A stretch of DNA of 45,947 nt from Anaeromyxobacter terrae. Its GTDB lineage: Bacteria; Myxococcota; Myxococcia; Myxococcales; Anaeromyxobacteraceae. Location: assembly GCF_022690685.1 (NCBI RefSeq), contig NZ_JALCYY010000044.1, positions 1-45,947 on the forward strand. The letters are read 5' to 3'. Of the stretch, positions 8,557-11,500 are shown piece after piece. The notes beneath the pieces are model-generated. The model did not search any database. It had not been told where the DNA came from and saw only the letters and a list, made by a program, of their open reading frames with translations. Position 1 is the stretch's first letter, and each line of letters begins with the position of its first letter. The translations under genes and the position numbers were made by a program.

Positions 8557-11500
8557 GTGAACCACGAGCGACGCAGGATCGACACGGGTGGGATCGGGGC
8601 CGGCGCGCGGGAGGCGCCGCGGCCCGCCGCGGTGCGCTACGCGGAGCTCCGCTGCCACTCCTGCTTCTCCTTCCTCGAGGGGGCGAGCCACCCGGAGGAG
8701 CTCGTCGCTCGCGCCGCGGAGCTCGGGCTCTCGGCGCTCGCGCTCACCGACGTGAGCGGCCTGTACGGGATCGTCCGCGCGCACACCGAGGCCAAGCGGC
8801 GCGGGTTCCCGCTCGTCGTCGGCGGGGAGCTGGTCGTGACGGGGCTCACGCCGGGCCGCCCGGCGCGGCTCGTGCTGCTCGCGCAGGATCGTGAGGGGTA
8901 CGCGGGTCTGTGCCGGCTCGCGACGCGCGCGCACGGGGCGGAGGATCCGGCGCGGGCGGCGCCGCGGCGCCCGCGGGAGGAGGTCGCCCTCGCGCTCGAG
9001 GCGGTGGCGGCGCGCGCGCGCGGGCTCTTCGCGCTCTATCCCGGCGCCGACGGCGACGCGGCCGCACGGCTGAAGGAGATCTTCGGCCCGCGCCTCGCGC
9101 TCGCGGTGGCGCGCCACCGGGTGGCGGGCGAGGAGGCGCGCGTGCTCGCCGCGCGCGCCATCGGCCGGCGGCTCGAGATCCGCGTGGCGGTCACGAACGA
9201 CGTCCACACGCACGACCGGCGCCGGCAGGTGCTGCAGGACGTGCTCACCTGCGTCCGCCATGGGACCACCGTCGATCGCGCCGGCCGCCGCCTCTTCCCG
9301 AACGCGGAGCGGACGCTGAAGGGGCCGGAGGAGATGGCGCGGCTCTGGAGCGACTTCCCCGAGGGGCTCGAGGCCGCAGCGGAGATCGCGGACACATGCC
9401 GGTTCCGGATGGAAGAGATCCGGGGCGAGCACCCGCTGCCGCCCGTCGTCCTCGAACGCTCCGCCCTCGCGGGAGGCGCCGCGGTCGCGATGTCGAGCCC
9501 GCCTCAGGACGAGCGCGCCGTCGCGCCGGCGCCGAACCGGTCGCTGCGAACGACCTCGACCCCGACCCCGGCCCCGACCCCGACCCCGACCTCGACCTCG
9601 ACCTCGACCTCGACCTCGACCTCGACCTCGACCTCGACCTCGACCCCGACCGCGACCCCGACCCCGACCCCGACCCCGACCCCGACCGCGACCGCGACCG
9701 CGACCGCGACCGACTCCGCCGACGCCATCACCGGCATGGCGCTTCTCCGCGAGCTCGTGCGCGAAGGGGCACGCTGGCGCTACGGCGGAGATCTTCCGGA
9801 GGAGGTCGCCCGGCAGCTCGCGAGGGAGCTCGAGCTCGTCGAGCAGCTGGGGTACGCGAGCTACTTCCTCACGGTCTGGGACATCGTCCGCTTCGCGCGA
9901 TCGCGCGGGATCCTGTGCCAGGGGCGCGGCAGCGCCGCGAACTCCGCGGTCTGCTTCGTGCTCGGCATCACCGCGATCGATCCCGTCCGCATGGGCCTCC
10001 TGTTCGAGCGGTTCATCTCGGCGGAGCGCGGCGAGCCGCCGGACATCGACGTCGACTTCGAGCACGAGCGGCGCGAGGAGGTGATCCAGTACGTCTACGA
10101 GCGGTACGGGCGCGATCGGGCGGGCATGGTCTGCGAGGTCATCTCCTACCGGGGCAAGTCCGCGCTCCGGGACGTGGGCAAGGCGCTCGGCCTGTCGCTC
10201 CCGCAGGTCGATCGGCTCGCGAAGCTCATCGGCATGTACGAGGACCTCTCGCAGGTCGGACCGGAGCTCCTCGCGCAGGCGGGGCTCGACGTCGATGCGT
10301 CGGAGCGGGTGCGCATGACGCTCGACCTCGCGCGCGAGCTGCAAGGCTTCCCCCGCCACCTCTCGATCCACGTCGGCGGGTTCGTGATCACGCGCCGGCC
10401 GCTCTGCGAGACGGTGCCCATCGAGCCGGCCGCCATGCCGGGGCGGACCATCGTCCAGTGGGACAAGGACGACCTCGCCGATCTCGATCTGCTGAAGGTC
10501 GATCTCCTCGGGCTCGGCATGCTGACCGCGCTCTCGCGCGCGCTCGCGCTCCTCGCCGCCCACCGGCCGGCGCCGGCGCTCCTGAGCGCCGTCCCTCATC
10601 CCGACTCCCTAGCAACCATCCCGGCCGAGGACCCGGCCGTCTACGACATGCTCTGCAGGGCGGACTCGATCGGCGTGTTCCAGATCGAGTCGCGCGCGCA
10701 GATGTCGCTCGCGCCGCGGCTCAAGCCCCGGAACTTCTACGACCTCGTCATCTCGGTGGGGATCGTGCGTCCGGGCCCGATCCAGGGCGGGATGATCCAC
10801 CCGTACCTGCGCCGGCGCGACGGCAAGGAGCAGGTCCGCTACCCGTACCCGCCGCTCGAGCCCGTCCTCGCGAAGACCCTCGGCGTGCCGCTCTTCCAGG
10901 AGCAGATCATGCGCCTCGCCGTGGTCGCGGCGGGGTTCACGCCGGGCGAGGCCGACGAGCTGCGCCGCCTCATGACCCACCGGCGCTCCCACGAGAAGCT
11001 CGCCGCGATGCGGGCGCGCCTCCTCGCGGGCATGGAGCAGCGCGGCATCTCCGCGGCGGACGCGGAGCTCATCTTCCACCAGCTGCTCGGGTTCGCCGGC
11101 TACGGCTTCCCGGAGTCGCACTCCGCCTCGTTCGCGCTGCTCGTCTACGCCTCCGCCTGGATCCGCCGCTATCATCCCGCCCCCTTCGCCTGCGCCCTCC
11201 TGAACAGCCAGCCGATGGGCTTCTACGCGCCGCACACGCTCATCGAGGACGCGAAGCGCCACGGGGTCGAGGTGCGGGGGATCGACGTCTGCGCGAGCGG
11301 GTGGGAGAGCGCGCTCGAGGGCGCGGCGGGCGCGCCGGCTGCTCCCGGCGACACACCCGCGCTCCGGCTCGGGCTCCACCTCGTCCGCGGGCTGCCGCGC
11401 GACGTGGGCGACGCGATCGTCGCTGCCAGGTGCGCGCGGCCATTCGCGGACCTCGGCGACCTCGTGCGCCGCGCGGGGGTGTCGCGCGCGTGGCTCGTGC

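Follow-up and report, generated by a model that had tools for sequence, protein, structure and literature searches.

Does a run of six-base repeats inside the gene for a mutagenesis polymerase form a special link between repeat and mutation, or is it one instance of something more general in the genome that carries it? The DNA analysed here, called the window, is the whole of contig C82 (45,947 bp) from a 5.65-Mb, 142-contig draft genome (G000), and it was compared with the related genomes G005, G007, G009, G010 and G011. Its features are listed below.

6275..7012, plus strand: ImuA-like (RecA-fold) ORF, gene 1 of the cassette (Pfam RecA, 39.5 bits)
6870..8555, plus strand, start approximate: ImuB-like (Y-family, impB/mucB/samB) ORF (Pfam IMS, IMS_C)
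8557..12060, plus strand: dnaE2, error-prone DNA polymerase, 1167 aa (NF004225, Pfam)
9475..9720, plus strand: predicted disordered inter-domain insert, residues 307-388 (AlphaFold; insert missing in DnaE2 outside the family)
9551..9712, plus strand: hexamer array of 27 units coding (Thr-Pro/Ser/Ala)x27 (unit parsing, Tandem Repeats Finder, translation)
12677..12744, plus strand: second hexamer array, 3' of dnaE2, adjoining the interspersed element (an array is also there in G005, G005:C28:12739-12852)
12780..13045, plus strand: structured interspersed element (core ~245 bp) with inverted-complementary ends (repeat copies, alignment, compensatory changes)
34751..34918, minus strand: hexamer/heptamer array of the same family, intergenic (repeat search of the window)
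41357..41548, minus strand: hexamer array near the N terminus of ORF 39975-41654 (559 aa), in the Thr-Pro/Ala frame

The ORF at 8557-12060 scores 1286.6 bits against the NCBIfam model for error-prone DNA polymerase (NF004225, cut-off 939) and contains Pfam domains PHP (residues 30-170) and DNA_pol3_alpha (396-652), followed by the finger, HHH_6 and OB domains. The OB fold occupies residues 1078-1152 of a protein that ends at 1167 with no C-terminal tau-binding domain, an absence after the OB fold that has been named as a feature of DnaE2 (PMC3919608). Immediately upstream lie the ImuA-like ORF, which reaches 62.9 bits against NCBIfam ImuA (NF033429), below its cut-off of 150, and the ImuB-like ORF, with IMS at 32.1 bits (cut-off 23.2) and IMS_C at 21.9 bits (cut-off 20.7). 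On the curated model, the domains and the gene order, the ORF can be assigned as a genuine DnaE2. Gene order, domain content and the missing tau-binding domain are all shared with ImuA-ImuB-DnaE2 cassettes (DnaE2/ImuC), from which this DnaE2 differs by an extra insert, predicted to be disordered, that lies between PHP domain and core and is filled with repeats in some species.

Tandem Repeats Finder (score 210) and unit parsing resolve positions 9551-9712 into 27 perfect 6-bp units CGACCN in the order T C C C* C C T9 C G C5 G5, where each letter gives the variable base and the starred unit is CGGCCC. The tract is in frame with the 1167-aa ORF and is read as ACC NCG, which yields 54 residues of Thr-Pro, Thr-Ser and Thr-Ala; all 26 steps between units are 6 bp and every unit is free of stops in the reading frame. 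Since the score is 210 and control sequence holds no array at all, the tract is not due to chance, although its exact copy number is less certain than its presence in a draft of 142 contigs. The sequence-only reading had placed an in-frame Thr-Pro/Ser/Ala tract between PHP domain and polymerase core, and Pfam and PDB alignments bear this out with the end at 9712 rather than 9714. PDB chains of Pol III alpha align to residues 26-281 and 416-1147 of the DnaE2 query, the tract falling between. AlphaFold, given a 34-sequence alignment, predicts residues 307-388 at pLDDT <50 and devoid of secondary structure, with both flanking domains well predicted. On this model the tract belongs to a disordered insert that separates PHP domain and polymerase core.

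Alignment of DnaE2 across related species places the insert in this family only, with some members having it filled by repeats. Measured from the NAERHLK-type motif to GRGSAAN, the linker spans 115-122 aa in 53 DnaE2 of other taxa (117-119 in order-level relatives) and 131-258 aa within the family, including 207 in the window, 177 in G005 and 258 in G007. The span is 191-202 aa in five congeners that lack the repeats, where the linker is rich in Ala and Pro, and 177-258 aa in congeners that have them. These spans indicate an insert that is specific to the family and older than the repeat, and as relatives without the repeat have an insert of near-equal length, the repeat mostly fills a linker that already existed. 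The earlier reading, with its estimate of about 55 added residues (the repeat residues number 54), was accordingly not quite right in treating the linker itself as an addition. It had also named a conserved, non-repetitive linker of the same length in orthologues as evidence that would count against it; non-repetitive linkers do occur in orthologues, but they are neither conserved nor of one length.

Unit number differs between species, one genome each being compared: 27 in the window, 11 in G005 and 22 in G007. The predicted change of length in whole units is thereby supported. The G005 array (T C C C C T6) lies at the same site and its blocks follow the same order from the 5' end, and dnaE2 DNA of G005 and the window is 94% identical over the core. 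The T-block has nine units in the window and six in G005, and the 3' C and G blocks are missing in G005, which supports the block expansion suggested by the earlier reading; such differences are the pattern expected of expansion in unit steps. In the single-contig genome G007 the DnaE2 units have other neighbours and lie between two copies of a palindromic repeat. In G011 the DnaE2 linker is a Thr-Thr/Ala/Ser variant.

Three further arrays of the same hexamer family lie in the window (12677-12744, 34751-34918 and 41357-41548), and many more lie outside it. Overlapping matches to GACCNC x4 number 1158 in G000, 1385 in G007, 84 in G005 and about 310 each in G009 and G011, with none in three congeners and none in the reversed control of G000. 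Among 174 genomes of the phylum, more than 50 matches are found only in the window's family, the Anaeromyxobacteraceae. A census of sampled contigs, several of them picked for holding an element copy so that an upward bias is possible, gave 27 array segments in 1.354 Mb of G000 and 32 in 852 kb of G007, and none when the sampled sequence was reversed or shuffled in 12-mer blocks. Gene calls from a simple home-made caller assign ~86% of the sampled DNA to coding sequence, yet the arrays are mostly intergenic. The dnaE2 tract is one instance of a genome-wide repeat and not a device specific to the polymerase. A survey of 117,861 genomes found that bacteria are on average not enriched in short tandem repeats (PMC12699852). 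No earlier description of this repeat was found in the part of the literature on Anaeromyxobacter tandem and simple sequence repeats that the search covered. Loss of mismatch repair was considered as a cause of the arrays and rejected, MutS and MutL domains being present in 12/12 genomes, array-rich and array-poor.

Where arrays do fall in genes they are strongly biased in strand and frame. In ORFs of at least 200 aa from the sampled G000 and G007 sequence, GACC is on the coding strand in 12/12 arrays. Ten of these have the Thr-Pro/Ser/Ala frame and belong to nine genes, six of them from G000 and three from G007. The remaining two read in an Asp frame near N termini (C55:1027-2433, G7c:28358-29875) and may lie upstream of true starts misplaced by the caller. 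Steps of six bases make up 161/161 in the ten Thr-frame arrays against 734/805 elsewhere, where 71 are odd (Fisher p = 2.8e-6); the ten arrays were selected on frame, and the two excluded Asp-frame arrays also have no frame-breaking step. The genes concerned include TGT-Methyltransf_30, CysH-CysC, FtsJ and, in G007, an ABC ATPase-ABC-2 permease fusion. The queuine tRNA-ribosyltransferase (TGT)-Methyltransf_30 protein (L126:10072-12012) is one open frame in most family members compared, and its linker differs greatly between species, being repetitive in G000, partly so in G007 and not in G005. CysH-CysC is a single ORF with a Thr-Pro/Ser linker in G000 (C55:95448-96800; L142:15448-16800), G005 and G007; in G010 the two are separate, adjacent genes, a stop closing cysH and cysC starting immediately afterwards in another frame. 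A role for the array in the CysH-CysC fusion is suggestive only. ORF 39975-41654 of the window was for a time taken for an antiporter; this was dropped, the ORF having no Pfam match and the exchanger domain belonging to ORF 38638-40590.

The structured element beside the second array occurs at about 30 places in G000 (for example C66:138220-138501 and C2:16793-17075), with copies mostly 93-97% identical; G007 has four diverged copies (77-86%) and G005 has fragments. Among 27 G000 copies of usable length, hexamer arrays flank the element on the left in 21 and on the right in 16, in one orientation at 37/37 flanks; a polarity this constant speaks against the element having inserted into arrays at random. 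The element folds more strongly than its shuffles (z = -3.0) into a nearly invariant terminal stem of ten pairs and a long inner stem; 5/69 predicted pairs have changes on both sides that keep pairing, and the overall covariation term is near zero. No known RNA family matched within the window. Terminal inverted repeats and many dispersed copies are properties that this 245-bp element, though not the dnaE2 tract, shares with a MITE.

The element copy also marks a break in synteny. G005:C28 and G007 match the window to about 12.74 kb, beyond which both stay syntenic with each other. Contig C126 of G000 has an element copy of its own, and the sequence to either side of that copy is syntenic with G005:C7; the final 4.16 kb of C126 are 99.5% identical to window 12719-16879. 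By these alignments, two distinct places have probably been joined in the window at its element copy (about 12745-12780), through misassembly or recombination between copies. The dnaE2 tract is 3 kb upstream of the synteny change and unaffected.

We consider it likely that the tract arose when a hexamer microsatellite peculiar to this family grew in steps of one unit within a disordered linker that DnaE2 already had. A microsatellite (GACCNC)n would have multiplied across the genome, the dnaE2 tract being one copy, which lengthened by whole units, most likely through slippage during replication or through unequal recombination, at a site where a presumably disordered linker already separated PHP domain from core. 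Its persistence could be due to a 6-bp unit without a stop codon, whose Thr and Pro/Ser/Ala residues an unstructured linker would tolerate. The effect on the polymerase is probably small, with linker length shifting in steps of two residues, and the changes may be near-neutral. Turnover of the repeat in the TGT-methyltransferase and CysH-CysC linkers is in line with this growth. As the hexamer is not expanded in other GC-rich relatives, slippage alone leaves the restriction to one family unexplained. Genomes with a DnaE2 tract are richer in arrays (Mann-Whitney one-sided p = 0.008, shared descent uncorrected). This association is expected if DnaE2 is just one tolerant site of a process acting genome-wide, and is therefore no argument for DnaE2 as the cause; a causal role of DnaE2 would predict the same, and to that extent the association counts against microsatellite growth as the explanation.

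That causal role is the core of a first alternative, a feedback switch in which slippage of the tract alters DnaE2 activity, hence the mutation rate and hence the tract itself. The tract is indeed repetitive, in frame and within a mutagenesis polymerase, and arrays are more numerous genome-wide where DnaE2 has it. The special tie to mutagenesis that the sequence-only reading had floated is nevertheless not supported, the same array being found across the genome: the dnaE2 array is one of many, mostly intergenic, and unrelated genes have the same kind of linker. Congeners free of the repeat keep an intact DnaE2 with similar linker length, steps of 6 bp are unable to switch the frame, and the insert lies in a region predicted to be disordered. 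A feedback switch is therefore very improbable. Selection on the linker, with Thr-Pro/Ser/Ala length tuned for DnaE2 function and repeats as a quick way to hold that length, is improbable too, though less so. The span of 207 in the window is close to the 191-202 of repeat-free congeners, and a published survey reports that DnaE2 core length correlates with genomic GC content (PMC3919608); against this stand the range of 131-258 inside one family and order-level relatives that manage at 117-119. Almost no weight can be given to an artefact of assembly or annotation. The genome is a draft with the probable misassembly at 12.75 kb elsewhere in the window, but G005 and single-contig G007 have the tract at the corresponding position, and frame is conserved on both sides of it.

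A more serious, if still rather doubtful, competitor is that interspersed elements carried or seeded the arrays, in which case the DnaE2 tract would be left over or derived from such an insertion into the linker. Short hexamer ends of the G000 245-bp element would lengthen, and a palindromic repeat would play the same part in G007, as opposed to growth from short native GACCTCGACC seeds without any element. The arrays at element flanks and their single orientation suit such seeding, as does the G007 palindromic repeat, which brackets the DnaE2 array and brackets or precedes arrays in an ABC transporter and a 267-aa protein. However, the DnaE2 tract of the window and that of G005 both lack an adjacent element copy or palindrome, most sampled arrays do not adjoin an element copy, and G009 and G011 have no convincing element copy despite their array matches. 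More tentatively still, a stop-free array spread with or seeded by structured elements might generate in-frame linkers and gene fusions, the DnaE2 linker being one product.

Compared with known systems, microsatellite growth in the DnaE2 linker most resembles in-frame coding microsatellites whose unit is a multiple of three, which likewise change in unit steps without frameshift and encode disordered, low-complexity linkers; the difference is that here one hexamer family fills the genomes of a single bacterial family, intergenic and genic alike. In classic contingency loci, a frameshift or a change in promoter spacing switches the gene. They share with the tract a coding repeat that is apparently prone to slippage, but length change does not give on/off switching here, the dnaE2 tract having only 6-bp steps with the frame kept. 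Rickettsia palindromic elements, which are mobile palindromes found in frame (reviewed in PMC10969869), are alike in being dispersed repeats in frame in unrelated proteins, as in the nine genes of the two genomes here. The dnaE2 tract is by contrast a plain direct hexamer array, neither palindromic nor of fixed length, and palindromic repeats accompany genic arrays only in G007.

The repeat in the DnaE2 linker is thus real, in frame and variable in length, and its mechanism is ordinary as far as visible. A self-tuning mutagenesis polymerase is a tempting story but an unsupported one, and the broader hexamer pattern deserves more attention: a lineage where one hexamer has become dispersed along the chromosome, with genic copies kept almost only in the frame of a Thr-Pro/Ser/Ala linker, offers a countable natural test for the origin of disordered linkers and perhaps of gene fusions.

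Two smaller observations concern the repeats that accompany the arrays. The G007 palindromic repeat (L010, L155), translated as approximately AGHPERSVSASAETRSRG, is in frame beside arrays in DnaE2, the ABC transporter and other proteins. In G000, some element copies are followed by short tandem repeats of the element ends, for example AGAGGAGCCGCCCGCCACCGTCACGCTCC (L083:1039-1500, L078:857-1100).
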